Assembly: GCF_014467015.1 (NCBI RefSeq)
Contig: NZ_CP058559.1
Coordinates: 1,178,001-1,242,000 of the forward strand
Reading direction: 5' to 3'
Length of the DNA stretch: 64,000 nucleotides
Source of the DNA: Alkalicella caledoniensis
GTDB taxonomy: Bacteria; Bacillota; Proteinivoracia; Proteinivoracales; Proteinivoracaceae
Under the pieces are notes generated by a model. That model saw nothing but the letters and a program-made list of their open reading frames with translations, was not told where the DNA came from and made no database searches. Shown here piece by piece: positions 34,133 to 56,865 of this stretch. The translations under genes and the position numbers were made by a program. Every line of letters begins with the position of its first letter. The first letter of the stretch is position 1.

Positions 34133-35380
34133 TTATATATAACTTTTTTTAATTTTACTTCCGTCAAGTTTATAGTAAGTGGTCTGCTTAACCTTTTTAG
34201 AAAGTGTATAACTAGAAACATTAGCTTTTAACAAATTATCTATTTCAGTATGAGGATGTTTAAAGCCTTTGTGATTTCCAGCAGATACAAATGCAAATTG
34301 CGGTTTGATCTCATCTAACAAATCTTTATTTGTTCCAGTTCTACTGCCATGATGAGATACCTTTAATATACTTTGCTCATATGCTTTCATTTTCCCTAAT
34401 AAATGATTGTAACCAATATCTCCTGTTAAATGAGCTGAGGTATTATGATAACCCAATGTAAAACAAATAGAACTGTCATTAATATCAGGAGATACGACAT
34501 TCGTACTTGTTCTACTATCTGGGTTAACGAATTCTAAAACTGTATTTCCTTCTTTAAATTTACATGGTCTATTTAGATTAATCCATTTAGGTATTGATTT
34601 AGCTGACTTCAATAAATCACTTACTGTCTTAGTAGGATGATGATAATCCTGATTTATAATAAAATATTCTATATCAAACAGTCCTCTATCAATAATATAT
34701 TTAGCACCACGCAAGTGATCTAAATGTTTATGTGTGATTATTAAACCTTTGATTTTATCTGTATCTAACTTATGCTTACCTAATATGTGCTTAATTTCAG
34801 AACAAAACCGATTAGCATTATTTCTGCTATATACATTAGTATCTATTATATAGGCATTACCAACTGATGTAATGGCCAAAAACGAATCTCCTTGCCCGAC
34901 GTTAAAGCAATAAATATAAGGACAATCTATATCCAATTTCCCCTGTTGACAAAACAGTGGCTCCTTAATATCTTCAGGATTTCGATTATAGTCAACTGAT
35001 ATATTCAAATCATTAAATGGTGATTCAACGCGATTATCAGCAAAAATGTCATTTTTTATATCAAACCTATACTCATCGTAAGCAAATATATTCTGTCCTC
35101 TAATAGTTGATTGAGGAATCGAATAATACCCTCCTTGTACTACTGACCCAATACTTTTTTCTACCAAATAATTATAATCTACCTGAGCATTTAAAAATTC
35201 CTTTTGTAGTAATTCATCAGCAACCCTTATGTATCTTAAGTGAAATGGAGGAAAAAACTCCGAATTAATGTTTGGAATTATCTTCAACAAAAAATCTCTT
35301 TCTTTATAATGGGATATTTCATCAATTGAAAATCTTACTAAATTTCTATTTAGCAGGTAATCTTTAAACATTCTTATCAT
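34133..35380 (-). CDS. ComEC-like metallo-beta-lactamase-fold hydrolase
   Basis: 415 residues. The N-terminal 150 residues are unassigned. From about 155 the ComEC/Rec2-type MBL domain begins with CFNVGQGDSFLAI, then IIDTN, the metal motif THKHLDH (216-222), HLTGDIG and VSHHGSRTGTN, ending HPHTEIDNLL. It is soluble and lacks the ComEC membrane channel, so it is a stand-alone nuclease or phosphodiesterase-like enzyme. Such proteins turn up in defence loci. It is the sole gene of its cassette. Confidence 0.85.
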   Translation of the reverse strand: MIRMFKDYLLNRNLVRFSIDEISHYKERDFLLKIIPNINSEFFPPFHLRYIRVADELLQKEFLNAQVDYNYLVEKSIGSVVQGGYYSIPQSTIRGQNIFAYDEYRFDIKNDIFADNRVESPFNDLNISVDYNRNPEDIKEPLFCQQGKLDIDCPYIYCFNVGQGDSFLAITSVGNAYIIDTNVYSRNNANRFCSEIKHILGKHKLDTDKIKGLIITHKHLDHLRGAKYIIDRGLFDIEYFIINQDYHHPTKTVSDLLKSAKSIPKWINLNRPCKFKEGNTVLEFVNPDSRTSTNVVSPDINDSSICFTLGYHNTSAHLTGDIGYNHLLGKMKAYEQSILKVSHHGSRTGTNKDLLDEIKPQFAFVSAGNHKGFKHPHTEIDNLLKANVSSYTLSKKVKQTTYYKLDGSKIKKSYI

Positions 35381-36984: not shown

Positions 36985-38062
36985 GTCACGAGATTAGGGA
37001 TCAGGCTTGAAGTTTTTCCATTCTCTCTTTCAGCTCATCATTTACCTGCCTAACTATATCAGCAACCTCAATATCAAGACGCCTTTTCTCTGCTTTAATC
37101 TTGGAGGTAGCTGATGGCGATAAGTTTAGAAGCCTTGCTACTTCGTTGTTTGAAATCTCAACGTATTTATCACTGAGTATCACAATGGCTTTTCTAGCAA
37201 TTACGTACTCTTTAAGCTTCGTCTTCTCTGTTAATTCTTTCTTGCTTAAACCAGTTTTCTCATATACACAATTTATTATATCATCAACGCTAACAACTAA
37301 ATCAGGCTCAACCCTCTTCATTTCCTTGAACTCCTCTACAGTAGCGTGTACTTCTTTTTCATCTAAGACAAATTCACTAAGTTCCATTTTCCCTTGGTCA
37401 AGATTCATAAATCTTCTATACTCCTTAACTCCACGCTTAATATCTCCACCCAGCATTTCCAGTATAAACTCCACTTCAACTACGGATTTCTTATTCACCT
37501 TTAAATAATCCTGATGACTACTCCATTTATAATTAAGCCCATCATCAATCCATGCTTCAACTGGATTTAAGTGTATATACTTTACTAGCTGTAACAAGTA
37601 TGAATCCCCGTCGCATAGCAATGCTTTGTACCGCTGCTGGAATACATGACCAGTTCTAGAATGCTTCAAATTAATTCTTTGGGTATAGCTTTGCTGTATT
37701 CCCTGCATGATCTTAGACAGTGGCACCTCCCCAGTTTCTATAAGCAAATGAACATGGTTATCCATAATGCAATAGGCATAGAGCTTAAAGCGATATCGTT
37801 CTTTATATTTATCCACTAGAAATAAGTATAGTTCTTTATCTTGATTATTGCGAAAAATATACTCCCCATTGTTACCTCTGCACATTACATGATAAAAAGC
37901 TCCTGGATATTCTATCCTAGGCTTTCTCGGCATAAGGACCACCTCTGAGATTTCCGAATTAAATGTTTAATGAATTATTCAACAATAAATCTAGATAACC
38001 TTCTAAGCGGGACAAAAAAAAGAAGTTTTTCCAGGAATGGAAAAACTTCAAGCCTGACCCCG
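36985..38062 (-). mobile_element. REP-associated Y1-transposase element
   Basis: The ends are inverted copies of about 25 bp (TCAGGCTTGAAGTTTTTCC on the left, its complement ending CTTCAAGCCTGACCCC on the right at 38040-38062). The right end also folds into the hairpin GAAGTTTTTCC/GGAAAAACTTC. One intact transposase lies inside. Remnants of the same element lie at 7859, 13531, 26985 and 55967. Confidence 0.75.
37001..37942 (-). CDS. REP-associated tyrosine (Y1, IS200-like) transposase
   Basis: 313 residues. The HUH motif is in MDNHVHLLIETG and the catalytic tyrosine probably in MQGIQQSYTQRINLKHSR, followed by GHVFQQRYKALLCD and VKYIHLNPVEAW, a family signature. The C-terminal 130 residues form a helix-turn-helix domain (EISNNEVARLLNLSPSATSK). 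It nicks single-stranded DNA at hairpins. Probably active, being the source of the remnants around it. Confidence 0.93.
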   Translation of the reverse strand: MVLMPRKPRIEYPGAFYHVMCRGNNGEYIFRNNQDKELYLFLVDKYKERYRFKLYAYCIMDNHVHLLIETGEVPLSKIMQGIQQSYTQRINLKHSRTGHVFQQRYKALLCDGDSYLLQLVKYIHLNPVEAWIDDGLNYKWSSHQDYLKVNKKSVVEVEFILEMLGGDIKRGVKEYRRFMNLDQGKMELSEFVLDEKEVHATVEEFKEMKRVEPDLVVSVDDIINCVYEKTGLSKKELTEKTKLKEYVIARKAIVILSDKYVEISNNEVARLLNLSPSATSKIKAEKRRLDIEVADIVRQVNDELKERMEKLQA

Positions 38063-38079
38063 AAGATTTGCGCTATGAA

Positions 38080-38405
38080 AAGAACTATTATTCAGTGCCT
38101 ACTATAAACGCCTACTTAAGTTTGAAAAACAGTTAGCTAAAACGGGTTTATTGATTATCGATGAGATGTCGTATTTGACGTTTAATAGACATCAATCAGA
38201 GTTACTTTTCAAAGTTGTTGCTGATCGAGCAGAAAAAAGAAGTGTCATAGTTTCTACTAACTTAAAGTTCTCAGAGTGGACAACCCTCTTTGAAAATGAA
38301 ACAATGGTCGCCGCCTTGGTTGATAGGCTAACATTTAGATCCCACGTACTTAACATGAATGGCCCATCTTATCGTAGTGAAAACTCAGAGCAAGATATGG
38401 ATTAA
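38080..38405 (+). pseudogene. Truncated IstB (IS21) ATPase fragment
   Basis: The C-terminal part reads KQLAKTGLLIIDEMSYLTFN (Walker B DE), then SVIVSTNLKFSEWTTLFENE, which matches IstB helper proteins. Its N-terminal two thirds are missing. It lies in the plus direction, next to repeat copies of an IS21 end. Confidence 0.8.
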
Positions 38406-38439
38406 TTAAACTAAGGAAATACTCGTGGGGTATTTCCTA

Positions 38440-38563
38440 TTATTAAACAACTTTGTGGCAAATCTTTTGAGTAGCGAAAACTATGCTAGTGGTAAACTTT
38501 TTCGATATCACTAGTGGTAAACAAATTGAATAGCAAGTGGTAAAAAAATTCGTTGACATTCGC
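38440..38563 (+). repeat. IS21-type terminal repeats (remnant)
   Basis: AGTGGTAAACTTTTT, AGTGGTAAACAAATTG and AAGTGGTAAAAAAATTCG are three direct copies of an AGTGGTAAAC unit, the usual arrangement at an IS21 end. They lie between the IstB fragment and a terminator-like hairpin. Confidence 0.65.
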
Positions 38564-38586
38564 AGTCTTCAGATTCTAGGCGCAAG

Positions 38587-38634
38587 AAAAAACCAGCCCG
38601 GAGCGTATACTCAATACGTGAGGACTGGTTTTTT
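38587..38634 (-). terminator. Terminator-like hairpin downstream of ssrA
   Basis: AAAAAACCAG (38587-38596) pairs with CTGGTTTTTT (38625-38634), with an inner CGTAT/ATACG stem. It follows ssrA by 90 bp, is bidirectional in form, and has a second copy at 45705 that was split by the IS21 element. Confidence 0.6.
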
Positions 38635-38689
38635 TGAAGCAACGACGAAGATGATGGCTTTTCAACAGTCGTATATACAAAAAAAACCT

Positions 38690-38712
38690 AAAGCTTATCG
38701 CTTTAGGGTTCA
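38690..38712 (-). terminator. ssrA terminator
   Basis: CCTAAAGCTTATCGCTTTAGG hairpin (CCTAAAGC/GCTTTAGG) with flanking A run, directly after the tmRNA 3' end. Confidence 0.75.
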
Positions 38713-38724
38713 TATCTCCATATT

Positions 38725-39051
38725 TGGTGGAGGCGGGGGGAGTCGAACCCCCGTCCGAAGGTATCTTAACAGCAGTCTCTCCGAGCGCAGTCTCTATTTT
38801 AGGGTTTCGCTTCTCTAAGCTTCTAAAGACAAAATCTTAAAGTTGCTAGCTTCTAAGTTTCCCTACCAAGTCGAAGCAACTTTGGTAAGTAGTCTGCTAT
38901 TTGTTTTCGTCTTAGTCACCAGTCACAGACAAACTAGTGGTAAGACGTCCGCTGACTATGCAGCGAAAGCTAAATTATTGTTTGTTTTAGCGTTTAATTT
39001 AAGTTTCCAGTTATTAACGTGGCCCTGGCCCACGGCTCGCTACTCCCATCT
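38725..39051 (-). ncRNA. ssrA: tmRNA (ssrA) copy 1, 5' end not found
   Basis: Minus-strand sequence ends with the tmRNA 3' half: the T-arm in GACGGGGGTTCGACTCCCC and CGCCTCCACCA. The tag frame at 38956-38991 encodes AKTNNNLAFAA then stop. Copies 1 and 2 are almost identical up to AGATGGGAGTAGCG, and diverge there. Before that point I cannot find the expected partner strand GGAGGCG or the TTCGACAGGG loop of the 5' part in either copy. So this is probably a 5'-truncated duplicate, and the intact gene lies elsewhere. Cells would otherwise lack a working tmRNA here. Confidence 0.85.
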
Positions 39052-39095
39052 TGACCCTAATCAAGTAGTGATCGCAAAGGAGACAAAAGAAACGT

Positions 39096-40752
39096 CAGAC
39101 TGTGTGGATAATCTCTAAAAACTCAAAGATTAGCTGTAAATTTCCTGTCTTTTGGAGCAATATGATTTAAACCTATAAAAACACAATGATAAAATGGGTC
39201 TAAGAGCTACTAATATCCTTAGTAGTTCTTTCACACCTATAATATTTATTACTCTTTTAAAATTATAGGCTAGCAAAACTAGGGCTGTCTCTGTAGTTAC
39301 AGAATCCATCCCTCTTGTTAAAAAATACCCAGCATTCATTGTCCTTTTGATGGTTCCATAAGGATGCTCAACAATCATCTGTCTTTGTAGGTATTTGTCC
39401 ATATTTGCTTCTGTTCTAGCATCTATAGTATCCAAAAAATCTTGGCTAGGTGATCGATTTATTATCCTGCCTTTAGCTGCAGTGGTACATTTGCTTTTTG
39501 ATTCACAGTTTTTACAGGCATCGTAGTTTCTATATTTTATTCTCTTTGGTTCTTTTGATTTGTGATTTATTCTGCGAAGTTCATGTCCTAAAGGACAAAT
39601 ATATAAATCTTTTTCAGGCACATAAGTAAATTTATCTCCGTAGAAATCTTTGTCTCCTGTGGCGTTAGAATACGACTGTTTTGGCAAATAGACTGTTGTT
39701 TGGTTTCTCTCACATTTCATAAGATCGTCTGCTTGGTAATAGCCTTTATCTGCTGCTACTTCGAGTTTCCTTTTTCCAAATATATCTTTAGTTTCTTCTG
39801 CAAGTGAATTTAGATTGCCTTGATCTGCGGGATTGTTTGTAACATCATATGCCACTATAATACTATGCTTAGAGTCTACAGCTGTTTGTATGTTATATGC
39901 TACAGTAACACCATTGTTTTTGTTGTCCATAAGCCTAGCATCTTCGTCAACTGTAGATACTTCATTACATTCGCTATCCTGTAGTTTTTTTTCCAACTCT
40001 TCAAATTTAATTTTACGCTCCTTGAGTTTTTCAATTTTTTGCTGAATTTCTTCAGGTGTATACTTAAGTTTAGGTGAATCGTCTTTGTCACTGCTTTCTA
40101 ACAAATCTAGATAGGAATTAACCTTATCTTCGATATATTGCTTGTGTCTCTGTATTTTTTTCTTTGAGAAATTATTCTTCTTTGAATTATTAGCTTGAAT
40201 TTTAGTCCCATCTATTGCTATGAATTCCTCGCCTAATAGTTTGAGATCCTTACACAACTTAGTAAAATCCTTGAAAACTTGTTTTAGCTGAGTTTTATTT
40301 TCTTTCCTGAAATCAGCTATTGTTTTAAAATCAGGTTTTAGTTTTTGTAATAGCCAAACCACTTCTATATTCCTGTGAGATTCTGTTTCTAGCTTTCTAG
40401 ATGATCTTATGCCATTTACATACCCGTATAGATATAACTTCAATAAAACAGAGGGATGATATCCTGGTGCACCTCTGCGGTGTTCCTTTGATTTAGTGAA
40501 TGCACTCATATTGACCAGTTCTACGTATTCATCAATTACTCTAACGGGATTATCCTCACCTATGTAATCTTCTATGCAGTCAGGAAACATTGTTTTTTGC
40601 TTTCTATCTGTACCTTTTATAAATGACAATTTAAAATCCCCTCTCCGATATTCTATAACTTAATTATACTACAGAAAAAGGGAAAAGTACTGTATTTACA
40701 GTACTTTAGAGCCATTTAGACATATATTATTCTCTAATTCTCACACAGTCTG
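39096..40752 (-). mobile_element. IS1182-family insertion sequence
   Basis: The ends are CAGACTGTGTG (39096) and its complement (40752). A 4-bp duplication ACGT (39092-39095 and 40753-40756) flanks it. It contains one transposase. It lies 45 bp beyond the ssrA copy and joins to an istA remnant. Confidence 0.88.
39130..40629 (-). CDS. IS1182-family transposase
   Basis: 499 residues, full length. The N-terminal DUF772-type part reads YHPSVLLKLYLYGYVNGIRS with SRKLETESHRNIEVVWLLQK; the first Asp is FIAIDGTKIQAN, the second VAADKGYYQADD, and the Glu is in VEHPYGTIKRTMNAGYFL. A cysteine set (CPLGH, CKNCESKSKC) is typical of the IS1182 group. Intact. Confidence 0.93.
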   Translation of the reverse strand: MSFIKGTDRKQKTMFPDCIEDYIGEDNPVRVIDEYVELVNMSAFTKSKEHRRGAPGYHPSVLLKLYLYGYVNGIRSSRKLETESHRNIEVVWLLQKLKPDFKTIADFRKENKTQLKQVFKDFTKLCKDLKLLGEEFIAIDGTKIQANNSKKNNFSKKKIQRHKQYIEDKVNSYLDLLESSDKDDSPKLKYTPEEIQQKIEKLKERKIKFEELEKKLQDSECNEVSTVDEDARLMDNKNNGVTVAYNIQTAVDSKHSIIVAYDVTNNPADQGNLNSLAEETKDIFGKRKLEVAADKGYYQADDLMKCERNQTTVYLPKQSYSNATGDKDFYGDKFTYVPEKDLYICPLGHELRRINHKSKEPKRIKYRNYDACKNCESKSKCTTAAKGRIINRSPSQDFLDTIDARTEANMDKYLQRQMIVEHPYGTIKRTMNAGYFLTRGMDSVTTETALVLLAYNFKRVINIIGVKELLRILVALRPILSLCFYRFKSYCSKRQEIYS

Positions 40753-40757
40753 ACGTC

Positions 40758-40906
40758 CCCATGTCTCTTCTTTCTTTGTATTTCTAAAAACTCATCAGGG
40801 GTAAAATATCAGTACTTTCTTACTGTTTTGTAATTTAGATTAAGCCTATTATCTGCTTGACTCTTATTTAACCCAATATCTTTAAAATGACGAATATCGC
40901 TGTACA
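40758..40906 (-). pseudogene. N-terminal fragment of IstA (IS21)
   Basis: MYSDIRHFKDIGLNKSQADN then RLNLNYKTVRKY and a stop; the sequence continues in another frame with TPDEFLEIQRKK. The pattern is the helix-turn-helix start of IstA transposases. GAGGTGA precedes the ATG. The remainder was lost at the IS1182 insertion. Confidence 0.7.
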
Positions 40907-41603
40907 TTTTTCACCTCACCAATTTCTCCACATTCCTTAAAATTCAGCTAAGATAAATATATCAGCTTTTTTAAGAAAGTGGTGATTTTTTTGGCCATTT
41001 TTAGTTGCCGAAATTCATCCATTTTATTTTACCATTTACACCCTTTGGCATCATGGGTTATCTCGAACTGATCCACGATACTATTGGAGGTGCTTATGGT
41101 TACATTATGATTGTGTTTTATAGTTGTTGTTGCTTTCTGTTCCCTCCCATCTTATTTAACCGCATGCTCCAACGTTACGTCTACAATCAGAGCTACTTTC
41201 AGCAGGATGGGATCATCTCCATCAATGTTACAGACACAACAAAAACGAGGGCGGCATCCTCAGGACCGAATCAACTCATGTTAATGAGCAACTTACCCCG
41301 ACAGCTACTCCCTCATTCAATTAATATTATATCATACTTTTGTAATTATTTTTGGGGCCATAGCTTTCTATTTCCATGTTAGACCCTGAAAACCTTACAT
41401 GTAATATACCCTTGTAGGCATCTTGAAAAAACTCCTACAGTTGTTCGAACACTTGGTAGACCCTAAGATCTTTATGGTTGCTTGATACAAACATTTATGG
41501 TGTCGCCTATTTTTTTGATAATTGCCTTCTGAACTCCTCAACGTCTAGGGTAAACAAACATGTTTCCTTTCAAGTTAGTGCTTTACCGCAAGAAAGCAGG
41601 TAT
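40907..41603. other. Stretch without a clear gene
   Basis: A 125-codon plus-strand frame at 41005-41382 is hydrophobic (YGYIMIVFYSCCCFLFPPIL) and slightly richer in GC than its surroundings. It could be a membrane-protein scrap, but no start signal or family is seen. Nothing else is recognised. Confidence 0.3.
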
Positions 41604-42371
41604 TTATTTAGTAATTTGTTCTATAATAGCCCCTAATAATTTTGTCCCGTTACTGCCTAAACTTACAATGCTGTTGATTTTATTGATTGTCTTGAATATT
41701 TCCTCTACTACACCTTTTTCCTTTTCACTATTTACTTTGTCCCGATTCAATATTAAAGTTCCTAAAGTTGCTGAAATTCCATTTTTAATACCCTCAGCTC
41801 CAAATAACTTATATTTTAGAAGCGATTCTCTAACATTATTCAATTGAAAAACAACTATTTGCTGCAATTCTTTATTAATATTGCTCACTGAAATATTTTC
41901 AATCATATTTTCAATATCACTAATCAATTCCTTGACTTTTTCGTCTTGGATTATAACCTCATCACTCATGTTTGATAAATATTCTGCACAATACTCAAGC
42001 GAAGTCATTAGCCTCACATCAAAATGAGTTTTGAACTTATCCAACCCATTATTCAAAGAATTCCTACTTGCATTAAAGTAAATTTTTGACAAGCCGTCTA
42101 TAACACTATCTAAGGTATTTAAATATTTCTTGAGGCTTTTAGGAGAATGTTTGTCCACCTGTTTCTTACCTTCCAAAGCCATCCTATACAATTCAGCATA
42201 ATTAGAGAATATTGAAGCTGTATCATCTTCATCTAACTCAAATACTTGACTAAGAGCAGTTTCTGCATTGCCGGTACTATTTATAATTTTTTCAATAATA
42301 TTATATAACCTACCAACTACATTATCTGATGATACAAATAGATTTTGTCCCCCATCATCACTTGTAAACAT
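41604..42371 (-). CDS. Hypothetical helical protein, possible partner of the TrlF-like ATPase
   Basis: 255 residues, mainly alpha-helical, with no signal peptide. The last 60 residues (GIKNGISATLGTLILNRDKV, and SIVSLGSNGTKLLGAIIEQI) are mildly hydrophobic and glycine-containing and could insert in a membrane or oligomerise. An AGGAGG-like site precedes the ATG. It lies on the same strand downstream of the PHP-ATPase and its 103-residue partner, but 473 bp separate them, so co-transcription is uncertain. Family not recognised. Confidence 0.55.
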   Translation of the reverse strand: MFTSDDGGQNLFVSSDNVVGRLYNIIEKIINSTGNAETALSQVFELDEDDTASIFSNYAELYRMALEGKKQVDKHSPKSLKKYLNTLDSVIDGLSKIYFNASRNSLNNGLDKFKTHFDVRLMTSLEYCAEYLSNMSDEVIIQDEKVKELISDIENMIENISVSNINKELQQIVVFQLNNVRESLLKYKLFGAEGIKNGISATLGTLILNRDKVNSEKEKGVVEEIFKTINKINSIVSLGSNGTKLLGAIIEQITK

Positions 42372-42844
42372 TTTCGTCCTCCTTATTTTCTATTATTTAC
42401 CTCTATTTTGTCCCCTGATTTACTTAAAAAAATCTGTAACATAACGTGAATCTTCAGGCTCAGACTTTTGAGTTCTGATTTGGGTTCAGGCTTGAGAAAT
42501 TATCTTAAAACATAATGATTTATTCAACGTCAAACAGCTAACTTACCTTCTAACAATAGTAAAAACTTCCTTAGTAGAAGGTGTTTACAGAGAATAAGAA
42601 AACCCAAAGCCAGACCACAAGGCCTCAGATCTTGAACCTGGTGTGATCTCAAGACTTTATATTCTAATCACACTCCCATGGAGGGAGTACTTAGGATGTA
42701 TTTGCAATCGAACGCAAAGTAAGCTTTAAGTCAACAACTCCTACGGTTCAATCATGACCCATTTTACTATATGCTTCAATTTTTAGAATAACAGTGCAAA
42801 AAAATCAAACAGTTTCTAGAAGCTCTGTGTTATGTAAAGTCAAA
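42372..42844. other. Intergenic stretch within the TrlF-like locus
   Basis: No gene. It includes a stretch (42500-42580) with weak likeness to the start side of the REP-type element (ATTTATTCAACG) and several short direct and inverted repeats. The promoter of the 255-residue protein should be here. Confidence 0.35.
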
Positions 42845-43156
42845 TTACAGAGCTTCTGCTTCACTTTCTTCGATGGTCAGACCGTAGTCAACCAGCTCGT
42901 TATAGATTGTTGATAATTCAGAATTAAGTTGTGATAGGTACTCTTTACTAATTTGGCTGTATAAACTATTATTTTCATTTTTCAGCACAAATTTGAATTC
43001 TTCCTTTTTAAGGTCAATTATTAACTTATTAAAAACTTCTTTTACAGCATTTTGATTATCAGTAGTTAAAGATATTTCGACTTTGCCATCAGAAAGTGTT
43101 AATTGAAGAAAATAGTTCCCCTCTCTTTCAACAACACTAGCATCTCTAGTTACCAT
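42845..43156 (-). CDS. Small partner protein of the PHP-ATPase
   Basis: About 103 residues from the ATG at 43156 (MVTRDASVVEREGNYF), preceded by GGGGG and overlapping the PHP-ATPase stop by 11 bp, so translation is coupled. The upstream in-frame ATG at 43198 is less likely. The protein begins with a beta-rich segment (FLQLTLSDGKVEISLTTDNQ) and ends with acidic helices. It could be a subunit or inhibitor of the ATPase. Not recognised. Confidence 0.65.
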   Translation of the reverse strand: MVTRDASVVEREGNYFLQLTLSDGKVEISLTTDNQNAVKEVFNKLIIDLKKEEFKFVLKNENNSLYSQISKEYLSQLNSELSTIYNELVDYGLTIEESEAEAL

Positions 43157-45284
43157 ATATTTTCCCCCTTTCACCAAACGCTTCCTTACCTCCTTCAAGT
43201 GTTTTCATGCTTACTTCTTTCCAGTTAAGTATATTATCAGGTTTATTTACTTCAATTAGATTATCTGAAAAAGGATTTCCAATGAATGTACTATAATTGG
43301 TTATTTCGTGTTTTCGATATACAGAACAATATGGTAAAGTTCTGACTGCTATGTTTGCATCATGTGTTGCAATTACGACTTTTTTCCCAAGTTTAGCTCG
43401 TTCTTGAATTAAGGGAACTATTATATCGTTGATATAGTCATTTCCTAAACTTTTTTCTGGCTCGTCAAGTAGATAAATTTCTTTATCTTCACTCAATTCC
43501 TTATGTAAGAGTAGCATTGAAGCTTCACCATTAGAAGGCGAGTATAGATTATTATCTATTGCAAAGTACCTATGAAATAACAGTAAATCATCTATATCAA
43601 CAATCTCTTCAATACCGTTAATATCATTAAACTCAGATAATTCTACAAATAGATCACTTGAATACAATCGTTCTTCTATTTTAGTAATTATATTCGCGAA
43701 TTCTTTCTGAGGAGTCTTTTTTGTTCCTTTTAGAGTATTGTAATTTCCATTAGAAATCGTTCCATCCTGGGTAAATATATCCGTCTTGCAATATAGGTCT
43801 CCCTTAACACCTAAATCACCTACATATTCGCTAATAGAGTTAATTTCCTTATTCATGCTTTTTCGTATTTTCTTAACGCTATGTTCAAGGTTTACTCGAT
43901 TCCCTGCATACTTACTGAAACCAGTAGTCGTTGGTTTTGCTGGCCGTCCAGTTTTTTTAGCAATTTCAGTATTAAATACCGAGATCAAATTATTGTATAA
44001 CTCTGTGGACATCATATTTACAAATCTTGATTCACGCTCACTCTTTATAGCTCCAAAGACTTTTTCAAGAATTAACTTTAGTTCTTCATATAGCTCTGAT
44101 TTTAATATCTCTTCAAGTATTCTGTTATCAATTGCATACTCAAGTAAACCACTGATTTTGTCATGTGTGTCAATAACTTCATCAAACTTCCTACTTATCG
44201 TTGTTAAGTCTGAGATCGGATAGTCTTTAATCTTAATGCTATTAGCTCTTTGATTATTGATTCGAGAGGAAAAGAACCTTAAGTAATTAGTAAGACTTGT
44301 GATATTCTCTTCTGATGCATTTTTCAGTATATTGATTTCATCGGAGCATGATTCTATGTTCATTGATTCAAGCGTTAGATTTAAATCATTCCCCTTTATG
44401 TCATACATAGTACCCAGGTTGTCTCGACTAGACTCAAAAACAGATGTTTTTAGCCCTTTGCTATTGTAGTAGTCAGATATTGACCTAAGTATTTCTGTTT
44501 TTCCTGTACCCTTTGAACCAAATAATATATTTATATCATTGTAAATATCCAATGTAATAGATTCAGTTGGTCCGAATGGCTCCAGCTTAATAGTGTCTTT
44601 ACTTTTTAGATCTAGTAAAGTATTAATTGATGGTGCATTTTTATCTAACAGCAAACAGAATTGATTAAATGATTCCACAGGCAGTCTAAGCTCTGGTAGC
44701 TTTTCAGCCTCTTCAGTATATAAGCTCCAGTCATGAACATCTGAACCATAAATTGATTTATGGCCATGGCTTACATAAATTCCTGCTGATATTGAGTTAG
44801 TAGCCTCCTTGATAAGTCGATTTTTATTAGAAATTAATGATTCCATTTTATTAATGTCATCATCAATCAAACAAGGCTTTTTAGTAAGATAATGAGGAAT
44901 AAAAACACTATCTAAACTATCAAAATGTTTAACCGTATCCTCAATGGTTATTGTAAATTTATCAAACTTAGTACCTTCAATTAAACTGGTCATTCTTTCA
45001 TACAAAACACCTGCATTTTCCGGATTTACAATTATTAATATATGTCCTCTCCTATCTTCTTCAACAACATCTAATTCAACACCAGGCCATATTTGACAAA
45101 TGCCAGTAGTTTTTTCAACTATTTGTTCAAATTGTTCTAAGTCAAAGTAATTGTGATTTGTTATAGCTAATATTTTCACGTCTGTTGCTTTAATAATCTC
45201 AGCAAATGAATCTGGATCGACATTCCGTTTTGGTGAATCACCAGATTTTGTTTTAAGAGTATGTGCATGTACATCAATTTTCAT
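43146..45284 (-). CDS. PHP-domain AAA/ABC-type ATPase (TrlF-like), putative defence protein
   Basis: About 712 residues from the ATG at 45284, which has AAAGGAG 10 bp upstream. The N-terminal PHP phosphoesterase domain shows DVHAHTL, TNHNYFD, GVELDV, FIPHYL and SDVHDW (metal-binding His/Asp set, residues 4-184). Then comes an ABC/SMC-like ATPase with Walker A FGSKGTGKTE (about 255-264), a helical insertion of some 300 residues, an NGEASML signature, Walker B EIYLLDEPEKSLG and switch VVIATHDANIA. Proteins of this plan (TrlF-like) occur in defence islands. The PHP domain may cut nucleic acid when the ATPase senses a trigger. Confidence 0.85.
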   Translation of the reverse strand: MKIDVHAHTLKTKSGDSPKRNVDPDSFAEIIKATDVKILAITNHNYFDLEQFEQIVEKTTGICQIWPGVELDVVEEDRRGHILIIVNPENAGVLYERMTSLIEGTKFDKFTITIEDTVKHFDSLDSVFIPHYLTKKPCLIDDDINKMESLISNKNRLIKEATNSISAGIYVSHGHKSIYGSDVHDWSLYTEEAEKLPELRLPVESFNQFCLLLDKNAPSINTLLDLKSKDTIKLEPFGPTESITLDIYNDINILFGSKGTGKTEILRSISDYYNSKGLKTSVFESSRDNLGTMYDIKGNDLNLTLESMNIESCSDEINILKNASEENITSLTNYLRFFSSRINNQRANSIKIKDYPISDLTTISRKFDEVIDTHDKISGLLEYAIDNRILEEILKSELYEELKLILEKVFGAIKSERESRFVNMMSTELYNNLISVFNTEIAKKTGRPAKPTTTGFSKYAGNRVNLEHSVKKIRKSMNKEINSISEYVGDLGVKGDLYCKTDIFTQDGTISNGNYNTLKGTKKTPQKEFANIITKIEERLYSSDLFVELSEFNDINGIEEIVDIDDLLLFHRYFAIDNNLYSPSNGEASMLLLHKELSEDKEIYLLDEPEKSLGNDYINDIIVPLIQERAKLGKKVVIATHDANIAVRTLPYCSVYRKHEITNYSTFIGNPFSDNLIEVNKPDNILNWKEVSMKTLEGGKEAFGERGKIYGN

Positions 45285-45761
45285 AAAAAAGTCTCCTTTC
45301 AATTTAAATGAAATAGCTTTTAATGCCTACCTTTTCCACTGCTTTATTAACAACTTGAACCGTCCTTGGATGTTTCATTTTTACTGGACCATTTCTTTGG
45401 TTATATTCAGGTTATACACCTTTACGGATTCATCTTCTTTTCTTAGATATTCATTCTATTCCCCCTATAATAGTCCCTTCTTTTATTCGCTAAAACAACT
45501 CTTATTTCCTTTATTTTCTAGTTATTTTTCTATTTATTAAGAATTCTCGACATTTTTCACACATCTAAGCTCCTTTTGTGTTCTTCCGTTTAATGCTGCA
45601 CCTTTTGCTAGTGGATAGTCATGCACTTTTTGTATAGTTCTTTTCCCTTTTAGCAATAAGCATGTTCTGACCCTCTCAGACTGTTCAAAAGTATTCAGAT
45701 TCAAGGCACAAAAAAGCCCAGCACCGCAGCGTATAACGAATACGTGAGGATGCTGGGTGTA
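45285..45761. other. Intergenic stretch with split hairpin
   Basis: An 86-codon minus frame (45537-45797) overlaps the IS21 end and is unlikely to be a gene as such. At 45705-45757 lies a copy of the ssrA-downstream hairpin (AAAAAAGCCCAGCA ... TGCTGGG), interrupted by the IS21 element. The rest is T-rich DNA upstream of the PHP-ATPase. Confidence 0.45.
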
Positions 45762-45905
45762 GATTGTCAAGTAAAATTGACCACTTTTTACAAACAAAAT
45801 TGACCATCAGTATTATAACACTTTGGATTTCTATAGGTAGCCATTTTACATTGAAAATTGACCACCAAAAATTTATCCTTTTTCATTTAAAACTGACCAC
45901 TAAGA

Positions 45906-46343
45906 TTAATATATCTTTATATGGTAACCATCAGTTAAAATAGATGTTTTATCGATATCTATTGTGTTTGTAATCCGATCTAGCCTGATGTATTTACTAA
46001 GTTCTAATAGTTTTTCTTGTAGAAGCTCTTTATATAGTAAATCTAGTGAGGTTTCCTTGGAGTAATGTATTTGGTGAACGATAGTATGTGAAGGCTCTTT
46101 TGAAACTTGCTTGTTACATATTTCATCTATACCCATGAATAGAGGTTCTTCTTCGTCCTTGATAACTATTTTGTTGCTAAATTCGTCATATGTGTACCCT
46201 GGGGACTTTTTAATTCTATACAACACTCCGTTAGGGGCCTTAATTCCGTATTCATTTGTTATATACTCCATAGCAGCTTTATTACCACTCTCATTATATA
46301 TTTTCACTATCGTTCCATAGTCTTCCTTACTAACTCTAGGCAT
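45906..46343 (-). CDS. Accessory gene of the IS21 element
   Basis: 145 residues, overlapping the istB stop by 8 bp. The N-terminus (MPRVSKEDYGTIVKIYNESG) has a helix-turn-helix look; the rest is helical and charged. It lies inside the IS21 ends, so it travels with istA and istB. IS21 elements usually have only two genes. I do not recognise the family; it may regulate or target transposition. Confidence 0.65.
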   Translation of the reverse strand: MPRVSKEDYGTIVKIYNESGNKAAMEYITNEYGIKAPNGVLYRIKKSPGYTYDEFSNKIVIKDEEEPLFMGIDEICNKQVSKEPSHTIVHQIHYSKETSLDLLYKELLQEKLLELSKYIRLDRITNTIDIDKTSILTDGYHIKIY

Positions 46344-46594
46344 CTTTGTTCCCCCTATTCATCTGTTTATTCTTTAGGTATTCAGCCATGTACTTTTCCC
46401 CTTTGACACGAAAACTGTCCCCTGTTATACTTAATACATGACAATGATGAACTAATCTATCTAGTATTGCAGTAGCCGCTAGTTGGCCTGTAAAAACTTC
46501 GTCCCACCTGCTTAGGGGAAGATTAGTTGTTATGATAAGGGAGCTTTTTTCGTATCTTTGCCGGATAACCTGAAAAAAAATGCTCTCTTTTTCT

Positions 46595-48292
46595 GAGGGC
46601 ACTGAAAATCTTATGTATTTCATTTAAACAGAATAACTTGTACTAAAAAAAAACGACTCTCTATTCAAAATTTGAATCTAGAGTCGTTTTTTAATGATTA
46701 TGCCATTTTTTATTTCGCTTATTCTTAATCCATTATTTTTAAAATTCTTTTTAGGTTTACCGTAAATATTGACATAGCTCCCTGCATCTCCATGCCAATT
46801 AGACCCGAGGATTTTGAAACATCATACCCGTGTCTATGTTTTAATTCACTATTTTTTGCTTCTATTTTATAGCGCTCTTTAGATTTTTCTTTAAAGTAAT
46901 CACTTTCTTGGAATTTCGCCTGCTCGGTATGTTCGTCAGATTTGATGCTTACGGAATAGGTCTTACTTTTAGCTCCAGATTTATAGCACCCTTCTTTTAA
47001 ATGGCATACCTTACACTTTTCTATATCAAAATAGTATGTGTCTGTTTGATTAGTGGAAAATTTTTTCTTCCCTTGGCGAGCTTTACGTATAGCCATATGG
47101 CCAGCCTTACATATATACATTCCAGCATCTTTATTAAAATCGAATTCATCTTCTTTTTTTCGGAAACCTTGTGTTACAGATGGGTTTAATTTGGCGACTA
47201 ATTTTATTTTTTTCTCTTTTGTATATTCAATGTTGCCTTTTTCAGAATATGCAGCATCACCGATAACAGTTTCAACTTTCATCCCAGCTTTTACACTTTT
47301 TTCTATCAGTGTTTCTAATTGTTTCCCATCATTTTTTTCTCCGGTTGTAACTGTTGCAGCTGTAATAATTCTTTCTTCGCTTATGGCAATATGGGTTTTG
47401 TAACCAAAAAATGATGTATCGGCACTTTTATGACCTATTCTTGCATCTTGATCCTGAGATATTTGTAAGTGTTCAATATCATCAGCAACTGATTCTTTTA
47501 AAAGGTTCAATTGTTCCTTTACTTTTGGATATTGAGCAAAAGCATCTTCCTTTTCAACCACCTCAATAAGCTTGTGGCAATAGTCTATTTCAGCTTCTAA
47601 GGCATCTGTTGTGTTTTTGGTAGGAAATTTATCCTTCATAGTTTCATCTATCTGATAAATAACTTTTCTCAGCTTTTTAGACCGATCCATCAGAATTTCT
47701 CTGGGGGATTTTTGATTGTAGCGCGCTCTTGTGTGGGTGGCATCCACGATAATGGATTTACTTTTGATGATTTCCTTTTCAATGGCTATTTCAACAGTTT
47801 TATTGATAAGCATATCCAATAAGTTTATATTTTCTAAGCGTAGTTTTCGAAATTTCGTAAGAGAACTTGGCTCTATCACCGACTCTTCAGGAGCCATATT
47901 TAGAAAATACTTAAAGGACATGTCATATTTTGAGCGTTCCACCACATCTACATCCGACAAGTCATAAATCGTTTTTAGTAATAAATACTTAAACATGCGA
48001 ATGGGATCGATAGCATTTCTACCGTTATTATGGCAATATTTATCTTTAAGCTCACCATAAACAAAAGAGAAGTCGACCAGATCATTAATTCTACGGAGTA
48101 AATTTTCCTTTGGAACGACCAAATTATATATCTCCATATATGGACTTAAAATCATTGACTGTTGATTTTGTATCATAGCACCCACCCAATTCTTAATTGA
48201 TACTTCAATTATACAGCAAAAAAAGCATAATTACCTTAGTGTTTAAGGAATTATGCCTTTTTTCGCTTTGAAGGGACTTTTTCAGTGCCCTC
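46595..48292 (-). mobile_element. IS1182-type insertion sequence inside istB
   Basis: Inverted ends GAGGGCACTGAAAA (46595) and TTTTTCAGTGCCCTC (48292). The 8-bp target duplication CTTTTTCT flanks it on both sides (46587-46594 and 48293-48300). 1698 bp with one transposase. The ends also fold strongly with ACGACTCT/AGAGTCGT near the left end. Confidence 0.92.
46725..48185 (-). CDS. IS1182-type transposase
   Basis: 486 residues. Conserved DDE residues lie in SIIVDATHTRARYN (Asp), VIGDAAYSEKGN (Asp) and RYKIEAKNSELKHRHG (Glu). A zinc-finger-like CKVCHLKEGC occurs near 390. The gene is complete, with no frameshift, so the element is probably active. Confidence 0.93.
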   Translation of the reverse strand: MGAMIQNQQSMILSPYMEIYNLVVPKENLLRRINDLVDFSFVYGELKDKYCHNNGRNAIDPIRMFKYLLLKTIYDLSDVDVVERSKYDMSFKYFLNMAPEESVIEPSSLTKFRKLRLENINLLDMLINKTVEIAIEKEIIKSKSIIVDATHTRARYNQKSPREILMDRSKKLRKVIYQIDETMKDKFPTKNTTDALEAEIDYCHKLIEVVEKEDAFAQYPKVKEQLNLLKESVADDIEHLQISQDQDARIGHKSADTSFFGYKTHIAISEERIITAATVTTGEKNDGKQLETLIEKSVKAGMKVETVIGDAAYSEKGNIEYTKEKKIKLVAKLNPSVTQGFRKKEDEFDFNKDAGMYICKAGHMAIRKARQGKKKFSTNQTDTYYFDIEKCKVCHLKEGCYKSGAKSKTYSVSIKSDEHTEQAKFQESDYFKEKSKERYKIEAKNSELKHRHGYDVSKSSGLIGMEMQGAMSIFTVNLKRILKIMD

Positions 48293-49636
48293 CTTTTTCT
48301 TTGTCCATTTTTAGGTAAGATAACTCATCTATGACTAAAAGTTGTACCTTACTCAAGGACTTCAGTGTCTGCTTTAAAGTATCTTTCTTGGCTGCATCTG
48401 ATAACTTGTCCATAAGTTCCTTAGCATTAAAAAACATAACTGACTTTCCTGCTCTACATGCGTTGATACCTATACCTGTTGCAATCATACTTTTACCCAC
48501 TCCTGGAGGACCGATGATAATGATATTTTCATTTCTGTCCATAAAGGATAGAGTGCCGAGCTCTTTTACCTTTTGGAAATTTATCGTTTCATTAAAACTG
48601 TACTCTATTTCATCTAAGGTTTTGATGAAATCAAAGCCAGCTTTCATAGTAAGCTTTTCTGTTAGTCGTTTTCTTTTTCCTTCTTCCTCAGTCTGAATTA
48701 ACCTAATTAGAAAGTCTTTGTACCCAAGTTTCTCTTTGATAGCTTCATCGATAATTCTTTGGTAGTTTTCTCGGATATCAACTAACTTAAAGTCCTTTAA
48801 TTTATCATTAATATATATATCATCATAGGCAACTTTTCTATTTATCATATTGGTGTTACCTCCTGACTCTCATAGTAGTCACAACTTCTTGTGATCCCTT
48901 CAATTTCACTTGTTTGAATAGAGGAGGCAACCTGATTAGAACTATCAAGAATGATCTTAAAGAAATCATTTTTAATTAACTCTTTAATTGATTTAATATC
49001 AATCACATCCTTAGCGATAGCATATGCCATTATTTTATCAAGAACTTCTGCTTCATATAGGTCCAGTAATTCAAGGATCTTTCTGGCATGATAGCTTGGC
49101 TGTTGAAGTATGCCATTAGCTGCATCAAAATATGCTTGTCCATACTTAAAGGTGTTTACAAAGTCTCTTTTGATTTGTGGAATTGACTTGCTTGCCCTTA
49201 CGGATATCGCTTCATAATGAGCAGGATCTTTAAGTGTTCCGTATTTCCCCTTTTGCGATTCTAATGACATAAGGAATTCAGACTGTAAGGTGAAAAGCTC
49301 AATTCTAAATCCATAAACAATCCTGAACTGAAGCTCTTTTGTAGCATATTTAACTGGGACACTATACTTGTTTGTGTTTATATGTATGTAGCTATCATTA
49401 CTAATGAGTCTTTTTTGAAGTTGACCCATCCTAAATCTATCTCTAGGTAATGGGAGAAGACAATGAATTTCCTCGTTTTCAAAAAACTCATTTGGAACTC
49501 TTCTAGTTGTTGAGTGCACTTTATCGTTCCATTGGCTAATAAAGTTTTTTCCCCTTGCATTTAGCTCTTCCATTGAAGAAAACTTATTACCTTTTATAAA
49601 TTGCTCTTCAATGTATTGGAATGGTTTCTCAATCTT

Positions 49637-49670
49637 ACCTTTATTATGTCAAGATTAACATAATAAAGGT
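49637..49670. repeat. Palindrome at the left RIT junction
   Basis: ACCTTTATTATGT (49637-49649) and ACATAATAAAGGT (49658-49670) are perfect 13-bp inverted arms around CAAGATTA. The outer 7 bp are istA sequence, the inner ones element sequence. It is absent from the right junction. Confidence 0.85.
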
Positions 49671-49806
49671 TATGTTAAGACTTTCGTTATGTAAAGCTGA
49701 TGAAACTAAAACTCTAAAATACTATGATTGATGCTGATACATCTTTACATAATAATTGATTAGAAGTGTTATTTATAAATTAAACATCACAAGGAGGGTT
49801 TGATTT

Positions 49807-51060
49807 ATGATAACAGATTTTAAGACATTGATTACTTTGTGTGAAGATGAGTTGAACATTCGGCAGTATAATGCTTCATATCAGCGAAGTATCCTAGCGG
49901 AGTGGGGGAATCTTACAAAATGGATGACTTTAAACAAGTTTAAGGATTTTACCGAGTCTATTGGTTTCCAATACTTAGATGAGACTTTAGGGACCCATAT
50001 TTCTGTCAAGGGTCTAGCGAACGGTAAAAAGCTACGTTTACGTGCAGTCCGTATGCTCTCTTCTTATCAAAAGGATGGTGATTTTGAATTCCGTACGCCA
50101 CGAATTGAGAGAGTTTTTTATGGAGATATAGGCAATGAAATGTTATTGTATCTATCCTACCTTAGAAGTGAAAAAAATCTTTCTGAGAGTACACTCAAAA
50201 ATAAGGAACAGTATTTATATGATTTCTTCTGTTATCTAGAAAAAAAATCGCTTAAATTGAATAATCTTTCTGTTGAAACAATGGAGGATTTTTTTAGTTC
50301 TATGAAATATTCACTCGCATCTAGGCACAACTGCGGTTCAGCGCTACGCATTTATTTTAGATATGCATATGAAAATGGAATTTCCAAATCAGACAGTTCG
50401 TTGTTAATTTTAAAAGATAATTACAACCATAACTGTAAGCTCCCCACAACTTACGAAGAAGACGAAATTCGCACAATCATTTCCTCAGTTGAGCGAACCT
50501 CTGCCACTGGGAAAAGGGATTATTTGATTTTGCTCCTTGCCGCTGAATATGGATGGCGATCAAATGATATTGTGAACTTTCAGTTTAACCAAATAGACTG
50601 GGAGAAAAATATCGTTTGTTTCAACCAACATAAAACTGATATGGCAGTAGAATATCCTCTACTATCTTCAATTGGTAATGCCATTATTGACTATTTGAAG
50701 CACGGTAGGCCGTCAACAGATGTACAGGAAATCATCGTTTCCACAGAATCATCAAAAAGGGGTCGGCCACTTTCAACACCGACGATACATTCTATTGTAA
50801 CGAAGTACATGCGTAAGGCAAACATAAAGAACTGGAAAAACAAGAAACACGGTCCACATTCTCTACGCCACAGCCTAGCTACAAACATGCTAAAAAAGAA
50901 TGTATCTATGCCCATAATCAGTTCCGTGCTTGGACACCAGAATACTGAAACAACCAAGATATATCTGAAAGTAGATATCGAAAAGTTACGATTATGCCCA
51001 CTTTCCTTGCCAATAATATCTTCAAAACATTACATGGCAGGGAGGTGTAAGCATGAGTAG
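49807..51060 (+). CDS. RIT tyrosine recombinase A
   Basis: 417 residues. A SAM-like/core-binding N-terminal domain (LSYLRSEKNLSESTLKNKEQ) precedes the catalytic domain with Arg (AAEYGWRSND), HSLRH (HxxR), LGHQNTETTK and nucleophile Tyr (TTKIYLKVD). Its 3' end overlaps the next gene by 8 bp. GGAGGG precedes the ATG. Longest of the three, as in other RIT elements. Confidence 0.93.
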   Translation: MITDFKTLITLCEDELNIRQYNASYQRSILAEWGNLTKWMTLNKFKDFTESIGFQYLDETLGTHISVKGLANGKKLRLRAVRMLSSYQKDGDFEFRTPRIERVFYGDIGNEMLLYLSYLRSEKNLSESTLKNKEQYLYDFFCYLEKKSLKLNNLSVETMEDFFSSMKYSLASRHNCGSALRIYFRYAYENGISKSDSSLLILKDNYNHNCKLPTTYEEDEIRTIISSVERTSATGKRDYLILLLAAEYGWRSNDIVNFQFNQIDWEKNIVCFNQHKTDMAVEYPLLSSIGNAIIDYLKHGRPSTDVQEIIVSTESSKRGRPLSTPTIHSIVTKYMRKANIKNWKNKKHGPHSLRHSLATNMLKKNVSMPIISSVLGHQNTETTKIYLKVDIEKLRLCPLSLPIISSKHYMAGRCKHE

Positions 51061-52027
51061 ACCAATGTTTAAATCTATTTTTTCTGAGGAAATGTATCAT
51101 TATTTAGACCATATGGTAGCAACGGGTCATAAAGAAGTAAGTTTTTGCAAGCATTTACGGCTGTTTGACCGATTTTGTACTGAAAATGAAATACTTCAGC
51201 CAGTATTCAATAGTCAACATGCAATGAAATGGATTCAACGGAAAGAAAACGAAGCTAGTACCACCCATTATTCTCGAATCAATGGAATTAAGCAATTTCT
51301 GATCTATCTCTGTCGTAAAGGATATGAAATCTTTGTGACAAGAGATGTATGTTTCAAGCAAACAGATTTCCAACCATATATTTATGCGGAAGATGAGATA
51401 GCAAGATATTTTCATGCAGTTGATACATATGAATCTGCACGTAATCGTAAGGACAGCATTCAACTACCAATCCTTTTCCGATTACTCTACTGCTGTGGAA
51501 CTAGAATTAACGAAACGCTTGGTATCAGAAAACAGGATGTGGACCTTGAGGATGGAATCATTAAGCTATTTGAAACAAAGAACAATAATGAGCGTTATAT
51601 CGTGTTAAACGAAGAGATGGCCGGTCTTATGTGTCAGTATGCACAAAAATGTTTTTACCTTTTAGATGAAAAAGACTATATATTTACCAAGTCTAATGGA
51701 AGCCGATTAGATGGTGAGGCTCTTTATGAACGTCATAGGCTTTTCCTTCAAAAAGCAAGAATTCCGTATATTGGTGGAGGAAGAGGTCCAAGACTGCACG
51801 ACTGGCGTCATACTTTTTCTGTGCAATCATTTAAGCAAATGGTTGATTCTGGCCTAGATATGTACGTAGCGCTCCCCATTCTATCCAGTTATCTCGGCCA
51901 CAAAACAATATATGCTACTGAGAGATATGTTCGACTGACAATGAGTCTGTATCCGTATATTGAGGATCGTTTTAAAGACAAAGTAAATAAGGTGTTCGGC
52001 GAGGTGGACAAACATGAAATCCACTGA
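51053..52027 (+). CDS. RIT tyrosine recombinase B
   Basis: 324 residues. Catalytic Arg is in YCCGTRINETLGIRKQDVDL, HxxR is LHDWRHTFS, then LGHKTIYATERYVRL with the nucleophile Tyr. Its ends overlap both neighbours (8 and 14 bp), so the trio is translated together. GGGAGGTG precedes the ATG. Confidence 0.93.
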   Translation: MSRPMFKSIFSEEMYHYLDHMVATGHKEVSFCKHLRLFDRFCTENEILQPVFNSQHAMKWIQRKENEASTTHYSRINGIKQFLIYLCRKGYEIFVTRDVCFKQTDFQPYIYAEDEIARYFHAVDTYESARNRKDSIQLPILFRLLYCCGTRINETLGIRKQDVDLEDGIIKLFETKNNNERYIVLNEEMAGLMCQYAQKCFYLLDEKDYIFTKSNGSRLDGEALYERHRLFLQKARIPYIGGGRGPRLHDWRHTFSVQSFKQMVDSGLDMYVALPILSSYLGHKTIYATERYVRLTMSLYPYIEDRFKDKVNKVFGEVDKHEIH

Positions 52028-53033
52028 TTTTGCAATGTACCTTAACAAATATTTTACCGTTTACCTTCCAAATGTTAAGGGTATGACACCATTAACAATT
52101 GATTCTTACAGATACACTTTTATACTTTTCTTGACGTGCTTGCAGGAAGAACTTAATATTTCTGCAAACAGAGTACAGATGTCTGACCTTTCGTATAAGA
52201 ACGTACTTCTATTCCTGGAATGGCTTCAGAAACAACGTCTAAACAGTATATCAACAAGGAACCAGAGGCAGGCAGCAATCAATAGTTTTGTAAGGTTTCT
52301 AATGTATGAATTTCCTGAGTGTCTAGATAATTATCAACGAATCGTAGGGATTCCGATAAAAAAAGCACCGCAGAAAGAAATATCCTACATGAAAACAGAT
52401 GGGGTAAAATTAATGATGTCTCAGATAGATGTCGCTTCTTCTGGAGGGTTGCGAGATTATGTCATGTTGTCCCTTCTCTATACTACAGGCATGCGTGTCA
52501 GCGAACTCATAAGTATCCGGGTAAAAGATTTATCCCTTTATGAACCATACACGCTTTTACTTCGCGGTAAAGGGCATAAAAGCCGCTATGTACCACTTAT
52601 GAAGGATATCATTCCTTTCATCCACCAATATTTAGTACAAGAAGGATATGATAGGCAAGAAAAACTTAGTGAATGGTTGTTTAAGAACCATATGAAAAGC
52701 CAATTAACTAGACAGGGTATAAATTACCTTGTCGGTAAATATGCGAAACGTGCTAGAGAAATTAATTCGGAGATAATTCCAGCGGATTTTAGTCCTCACA
52801 AAATGAGACATACAACGGCTATGGGACTCGTTGATTCTGGGGTTGACCTAATTTACATACGGGATTTACTAGGTCATGTCAGTGTTAAAACTACGGAAGT
52901 TTACGCAAAAGCAGAAGTAAGCAGAAAGCGTGAAGCTATTGAAGCTGCTAGCAAGGAGATTGTTCCACCGGAAAAAGCACAATGGGATAACAATACTGAT
53001 TTAAAACAGTGGCTAAAAACATTCAACCGCTGA
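52014..53033 (+). CDS. RIT tyrosine recombinase C
   Basis: 339 residues. Catalytic residues in TTGMRVSELISIRVKDLSL (Arg), SPHKMRHTTAM (HxxR), DLLGHVSVKTTEVYAKAE (His and Tyr), which is the most XerD-like of the three. The C-terminal tail (KAQWDNNTDLKQWLKTFNR) is element-specific. Confidence 0.93.
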   Translation: MKSTDFAMYLNKYFTVYLPNVKGMTPLTIDSYRYTFILFLTCLQEELNISANRVQMSDLSYKNVLLFLEWLQKQRLNSISTRNQRQAAINSFVRFLMYEFPECLDNYQRIVGIPIKKAPQKEISYMKTDGVKLMMSQIDVASSGGLRDYVMLSLLYTTGMRVSELISIRVKDLSLYEPYTLLLRGKGHKSRYVPLMKDIIPFIHQYLVQEGYDRQEKLSEWLFKNHMKSQLTRQGINYLVGKYAKRAREINSEIIPADFSPHKMRHTTAMGLVDSGVDLIYIRDLLGHVSVKTTEVYAKAEVSRKREAIEAASKEIVPPEKAQWDNNTDLKQWLKTFNR

Positions 53034-54420: not shown

Positions 54421-54534
54421 CAACTAGAGATATAGATCATTAAAAATAGTAGCAGTTTGCTTTTAAACATAGTCATAACTTTCGCAAACAACTACACATA
54501 GCTTTGTATATTGGTCTCATTTTTTCAAGAATTG

Positions 54535-56857: not shown

Positions 56858-56865
56858 AAAGCTCC

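Follow-up and report, generated by a model that had tools for sequence, protein, structure and literature searches.

A PHP-ABC ATPase protein and its obligate small partner recur as the last part of bacterial restriction operons

Introduction

In the restriction guardians PrrC and PARIS, an ABC ATPase protein senses that restriction is inhibited or that an anti-restriction protein is present, and a nuclease is then set free or activated, as described in PMC12707154 and PMC2610378; PrrC lies within a type I restriction-modification (R-M) locus, according to the former source. TrlF, which is encoded by the temperature restriction locus (TRL) of Photorhabdus, has been annotated as a histidinol phosphatase and belongs to an operon presented as spreading in a section of PMC7554251. 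The present study concerns a 64,000-nucleotide stretch of the Alkalicella caledoniensis genome (NZ_CP058559.1, positions 1,178,001 to 1,242,000 of the forward strand; hereafter the window, numbered from its first letter), in which a protein that combines a PHP domain with an ABC-type ATPase (A) is encoded together with two smaller proteins (B and C). We herein report that B is a genuine obligate partner of A and that, in relatives, A-B repeatedly closes restriction operons of type I, II, or III, and discuss how this pair compares with the systems described above.

Results

A and B as a two-gene unit

The three genes lie at the positions and lengths that had been assigned to them by a sequence-only reading of the window, including an overlap between A and B:

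45284-43146, minus strand: gene A, 712 amino acids (aa), ATG start with AAAGGAG upstream, PHP domain and ABC/Rad50-like ATPase
43156-42845, minus strand: gene B, 103 aa, ATG start preceded by a ribosome-binding site
43146..43156, minus strand: 11-bp overlap of the end of A with the start of B
42371-41604, minus strand: gene C, 255 aa, helical, with its own AAGGAGG upstream

The 11-bp overlap suggests translational coupling of A and B, and overlaps of typically 10-14 bp were found in relatives (at the loci where an ATG start at that place was chosen). A scan of the genomes of 84,980 species with an alignment of A yielded at least 65 loci, and in 62 of the 65 the end of A is abutted or overlapped by the start of a B-like open reading frame (ORF) of 79-120 aa. 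B is also present at L066 although A has an internal stop there, and the sequence of L057 and L058 ends about 110-210 bp from the match to A, so that B is not assessable. A B-like ORF follows A in all 63 testable loci, and this recurrence places the pair beyond chance. Independent searches of 398 Bacillota genomes with A and with B returned the same three genomes, one of which has A split over two contigs. The pairwise distances of A and B were correlated across 59 pairs (r=0.96) and within the 42 nearest (0.95), and none of 2000 permutations was as high in either case. Two alignments of relatives were compiled: A4, with 63 rows (leaving out L046, L062, L068, and L077 as near copies or short, as well as L057, L058, and L066), and A5, with 60 rows (leaving out L046, L049, L056, L062, L068, L057, L058, and L066).

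Regarding B, E80 is invariant in its 63-row alignment and K39, F42, Y73, L77, and N78 are nearly so, and the model of the protein has a beta-beta-beta-alpha-beta-alpha fold (predicted local distance difference test, pLDDT, 88.6). No viral model matched this structure at E<=0.001. A RuvC/RNase H-like arrangement (Z 3.9) was too weak to claim, and sub-threshold Pfam/PADLOC matches to RE_HaeIII, REase_II, and LmuC were set aside. B belongs to no named family, in agreement with the sequence-only reading, which had described a coupled second gene of an unfamiliar family.

Since A and B are probably coupled in translation and also occur on plasmids, they may be viewed as resembling a toxin-antitoxin pair, with either protein holding the other in check and the pair stabilising islands and plasmids; a B-like ORF is open beside a broken or truncated A in E. 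faecium pKO1 (L004) and S. epidermidis SAP105A (L005). Many antitoxin genes lie upstream of the toxin gene, whereas B lies downstream of A, and the conservation of E80, K39, and N78 suggests a structural partner in a context that is linked to defence. We regard the toxin-antitoxin explanation as quite improbable.

A-B is a mobile two-gene module that recurs in many bacterial phyla. In the tree of A, the protein of the window pairs with that of genome G063 at the base of a Bacteroidota group, apart from the main Bacillota group, the fork that joins this pair to Bacteroidota having a support of 92/72 only. The copy of A on a Photobacterium plasmid is nearly identical to a Vibrio copy, and no relatives of A were found in the viral contigs or phage records searched. 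Beside A-B of G063 (L018:7695-12453, minus strand), helicase-like, ATPase-like, and 426-aa ORFs form one run as judged by eye, which may be a further defence operon.

Location in restriction operons

An upstream gene was called at 62 loci, and 21 of these have a same-strand one within 110 bp; nine of the 21 belong to a restriction locus (types I, II, or III). The neighbours of interest were as follows:

L039, L040, L069: HsdR directly upstream of A-B
L072: type III Res protein with an endonuclease domain upstream of A-B
L054: Eco57I/HSDR_N operon upstream of A-B
L026, L027, L057: operon of an XRE regulator (labelled by eye), a C5 methyltransferase, further genes, and a DPPY methyltransferase
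L048: unassigned 461-aa gene adjoining A-B, after XRE (by eye) and C5 methyltransferase genes
L081: HsdR abutting B downstream
L021: OLD-type AAA/TOPRIM nuclease 36 bp upstream of A-B
Photobacterium plasmid: BsuBI-type R-M adjoining A-B

Since the restriction-linked loci are on separate branches of the tree of A, this linkage probably has several independent origins. Methyltransferase motifs were present in 17/514 flanking ORFs and in 2/397 ORFs of a control (p=0.004); the control consisted of 40 10-kb stretches taken from 20 of the genomes that contain the 65 loci, namely, only those with long contigs; when near-identical operons were collapsed, the counts were 13/510 and 2/397 (p=0.017).

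Architecture of protein A

A structural model of A was obtained with AlphaFold2 from a 59-sequence alignment (mean pLDDT 88.6; predicted template modelling score 0.64), and its parts were assigned as follows:

residues about 1-212, N-terminal: PHP domain (structural matches)
residues about 226-712: ABC/Rad50-like ATPase (profile and structural matches)
residues about 360-477: long helical insert in the ATPase part

In structure comparisons, residues 1-212 of the model have the PHP fold. The DNA-bound structure of Endonuclease Q was their best match (Z 15.8, 208 aligned residues, 3.3 A, the listed range of A also taking in a few C-terminal residues), and RNase AM came next through its PHP domain (Z 15.1), sequence identity to these two enzymes being 12-18%; Foldseek returned RNase AM and phosphoesterases for the same part. 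The remainder resembles ABC ATPases, such as ABCE1 and UvrA, and Foldseek matched it to retron PtuA, AriA, and the heads of SMC and Rad50. AriA was the best PDB profile match of the ABC part (1e-10), and the PADLOC models matched by A were PDC-M49A (2.7e-31), AriA (4.7e-10), and PtuA. The combination of PHP with an ABC-type ATPase, which had been read from the letters of the window, was confirmed by these matches.

Residues of the metal-ligand type are well preserved: H6, H8, H131, and D182 are present in 60/60 rows, and H44, E70, and H81 in 59/60, the remaining row having a gap or X. All 60 rows also retain Walker A (G256, K258, G259, G261, and K262), the signature-like SNGE (S584, G586, and E587), the Walker B/D-loop DEPE (D607, E608, and E610), and the H-loop THDAN (T640 and H641). 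This conservation speaks for a functional ATPase and for a metal site that is active but varies in a manner specific to the family, and names no substrate. The PHP domain is most likely a metal-dependent phosphoesterase, namely, a nuclease. The list of its matches also includes an amidohydrolase bound to adenosine monophosphate (2yb1, Z 13.6) and phosphoesterases, as would suit a phosphatase that acts on a small molecule or nucleotide and depletes a metabolite or signal. Considering that the best structural matches are the nucleases Endonuclease Q and RNase AM, and that the Rad50-like ATPase to which PHP is fused hints at nucleic acid, a phosphatase of this kind seems unlikely.

Gene C as a separate accessory gene

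Gene C is on the same strand as A-B and is their neighbour on one island, and the sequence-only reading had grouped all three genes into one module. The pairing of A with B was sustained in relatives; the inclusion of C was not, as described below. The spacer between B and C is 473 bp long and opens with a putative terminator:

42806..42857, minus strand: terminator-like hairpin of 11 pairs, starting inside the final codons of B, with a T run behind it

The folding energy of this hairpin is -16.8 kcal/mol (z -2.2; 6/200 shuffles fold equally well), and a simple hairpin scan did not list it because its loop is longer than that scan permits. The A-B transcript is predicted to end here, ahead of C, and the spacer with its hairpin and T run, together with the separate ribosome-binding site of C, indicates that A-B may form one operon and C another unit. 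There were no relatives of C among the 514 ORFs that flank the 65 A loci, and neither A nor B was found in any of the six C-family loci examined. The co-occurrence of both small partners with the ATPase gene, as proposed from the window, consequently holds for B and fails for C. As a third partner, C was ruled out on these grounds and the hairpin, and it is extremely unlikely that A, B, and C constitute one system.

Relatives of C (L012-L017) are ORFs of about 250 aa found on phages and plasmids. They adjoin an S24/LexA-type repressor in a Bacillus phage record and a Halomonas phage record, and occur near ccdAB, vapBC, and pifC on plasmids of Vibrio, Pseudoalteromonas, and Enterobacterales, with ccdAB/vapBC on one side and pifC on the other in F-like plasmids. 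Relatives of the phage C were not found in the viral contigs searched, and weak matches in Bacillota (G147, G083, and G027), which were partial and within longer frames, were treated as chance. C looks like an independent accessory gene that travels alone rather than a part of the A-B module. The membrane tail that had been proposed for C is weak, the maximum 19-residue hydropathy being 1.06 at residues 232-250 and reaching 1.85 in one plasmid relative. Near a C relative on an E. coli plasmid (L017:1854-3992, minus strand), a 712-aa AAA ATPase is encoded, which we take to be reminiscent of PrrC/RloC; it has the same length as A, and was rejected as a relative because it has no similarity to A.

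The island and its neighbourhood

The genomic surroundings read as two islands in tandem at ssrA, with A-B-C on the inner one (about 39.1-54.1 kb; 15 kb). The following features mark the island:

54095-54424, minus strand: 5'-truncated copy of transfer-messenger RNA (tmRNA, ssrA), found by Rfam, one edge of the island
38725-39062, minus strand: 5'-truncated tmRNA (ssrA) copy, found by Rfam, the other edge
64682-65038, same strand: complete tmRNA gene, just outside the window
49807-51060, plus strand: recombinase-like ORF inside the island
51053-52027, plus strand: second of three consecutive recombinase-like ORFs
52014-53033, plus strand: third of these ORFs

In an alignment with the complete gene, both copies lacked the 5' end and had identical 3' ends; ARAGORN reported no tmRNA in the window, and Rfam found both copies. 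An ORF near the complete gene is presumably smpB, and the three recombinase-like ORFs are, from the look of their sequences, presumably tyrosine recombinases. Transposase ORFs, which we assume to belong to the insertion sequence types assigned to them, lie on either side. The expectation of a defence-like island between tmRNA copies and insertion sequences thus agrees with what was found.

A composite transposon around A-B-C was rejected because there were no long bracketing repeats within 38000-50000. A 924-bp direct repeat of 96% identity (~36991-37914 and ~55965-56876) is present on either side of the island and covers a transposase-like ORF. On the neighbouring island, a reverse transcriptase (60439-61995, minus strand) matches the PADLOC model RT_UG31 (8.5e-96), a DRT-class candidate, and a 190-aa ORF is located at 62223-62795. 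The ORF at 57539-58408 (minus strand) matches PDC-M35A (1.7e-94), and a match to PDC-M35B among the ORFs of the window probably corresponds to the adjacent ORF at 57073-57546. A 415-aa ORF at 34133-35380 (minus strand) showed weak matches to LmuA (1.6e-13) and PDC-M48B (8.5e-9).

Discussion

Proposed function of A-B

We see roughly even chances that A-B is a mobile anti-invader module in which an ATPase-gated PHP nuclease acts as a restriction guardian or second line of defence, similar to PrrC and PARIS, with B as a regulatory or sensing subunit. Based on the pairing, co-divergence, domain architecture, conserved catalytic motifs, restriction-operon location, and mobility that were computed here, we infer the following as to what the nuclease does and cuts, what triggers it, how B contributes, and how protection arises. 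The PHP nuclease of A would be gated by the Rad50/AriA-type ABC ATPase of the same chain, and B, made by coupled translation, would bind A as its dedicated regulatory or sensing subunit. A-B would remain quiet while restriction works. The trigger may come from the phage, for example as DNA ends, as a protein that counters restriction, or through the inhibition of a restriction enzyme in cis or trans. The released PHP domain would then cut nucleic acid, either the DNA of the invader or, as in PrrC and PARIS, the tRNA or RNA of the host, and infection would stop.

Several points weigh against this interpretation. Counted per locus, the enrichment of methyltransferase motifs is marginal (12/65 versus 2/40, p=0.07), and decreases to 10/63 versus 2/40 (p=0.12) when three near-identical operons are collapsed. 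The nine restriction loci among 21 close upstream genes were assigned with the help of Pfam and context, and motifs and phmmer alone were applied to the control, which makes the p value of that comparison generous; with this difference in method as a caveat, the operon position is stronger evidence than the motif counts. The shared descent of a linked pair alone suffices to give the correlation between A and B distances, and the model of B is without a clear structural relative (best Z 3.9). Position 184 of A is not conserved (Q in 28, H in 18, and K in 10 of 60 rows), and PHP enzymes often have another metal-ligand histidine at the equivalent position. The A sequences did not reach the Pfam PHP family PF02811 (20.3 bits for A of G416 against a cut-off of 26.4; A of the Alkalicella genome was not listed). 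Among the 51 other ORFs of the window that were scanned, no restriction gene was recognised beside A-B (25 of the 48 matched families being listed); those 25 include a match to DrmD, not traced to an ORF, and otherwise no R-M. In favour of the interpretation, type I genes (HsdR and N6-methylase) are located elsewhere in the host genome at 932997 and 2985856, and an enzyme guarded by A-B of the window would have to act in trans.

That 44/65 loci have no close same-strand upstream gene, which also counts against a guardian, together with the lack of a recognised restriction gene next to A-B in the window and the matches of the ABC part to AriA, retron PtuA, and Rad50, may also be accounted for by a stand-alone nuclease-ATPase defence of the Septu/Gabija/PARIS type. 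Such a system would sense invader DNA or a phage protein directly, and its linkage to restriction would reflect shared defence islands. It leaves the tight operonic place after type I, II, and III R-M genes on separate branches of the tree less well explained, and we hold it as a real possibility, albeit a tentative one. The guardian or second-line interpretation is favoured over the stand-alone one because A-B shares the guardian logic in another build, in which a single chain carries both effector and ATPase, a small partner is obligate, and restriction operons are a recurrent location.

A more specific proposal is that A-B represents a new kind of restriction guardian, in which the PHP nuclease is locked by its own Rad50-like ATPase and the small sensor B, and which can be exchanged among type I, II, and III operons of several phyla as their final component and fires when phages disable restriction of whichever type. 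In this strong form, we consider the proposal rather doubtful. PrrC and PARIS both act by cleaving tRNA, and each has a trigger of its own; if the proposal is true, one widespread PHP-ATPase module that plugs into different types of restriction operons would imply that failing restriction gives rise to a shared signal, and the PHP fold, which is known from DNA repair and RNA processing, would enter the repertoire of anti-phage effectors.

Comparison with known systems

We found no paper in the open-licence PMC literature that describes a defence module in which a PHP-ABC ATPase is paired with a small protein, or that contains the term PDC-M49. To our knowledge, PDC-M49 is a listed PADLOC candidate for phage defence that is yet to be put to the test. 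A matches all three PDC-M49A models (best 2.7e-31, by E value) and 60/60 relatives of A match the PDC-M49A model PDLC04678, in a two-gene candidate that also has a model for B. The PDC-M49B model differs in that it matches 1/63 B rows (7.9e-4) and does not match B of the window. Since it misses nearly all B rows, A-B is a divergent branch of PDC-M49. For this candidate, the unit is now defined as two proteins, and there are catalytic residues that can be mutated and restriction systems with which it is naturally paired.

The sequence-only reading had called A TrlF-like, and the likeness is justified as far as the build of PHP plus ATPase (the ATPase part according to the NCBIfam name) is concerned. 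A reaches 60.2 bits against NCBIfam NF045780, for which the cut-off is 350, and the best stretch covers the N-terminal part only, whereas PDC-M49A fits better. As judged from these profile matches, A belongs with PDC-M49 and not with TrlF proper. TrlG (Alba_2/HATPase) and TrlR (79 aa), the Photorhabdus partners in the TRL operon, were not seen by eye beside A in the window, no profile search having been aimed at them.

Endonuclease Q and RNase AM share the PHP fold with A (Z 15.8 and 15.1), and we know of neither an ABC ATPase fusion nor a B partner in these enzymes. Regarding PARIS, A contains an AriA-type ABC ATPase (profile 1e-10), and 59/60 rows of A match AriA. In PARIS, the effector is the TOPRIM nuclease AriB, which forms a chain of its own, whereas the effector of A is a PHP domain fused to the ATPase, with B amounting to 103 aa; neither B nor C matched AriB among the PADLOC models, and there is no separate TOPRIM effector next to A. 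PrrC/RloC and A have in common an ABC ATPase with a nuclease effector. PrrC has an anticodon-nuclease domain where A has PHP, and A-B differs further from PrrC in having an obligate small partner and in occurring in type II and III loci as well.

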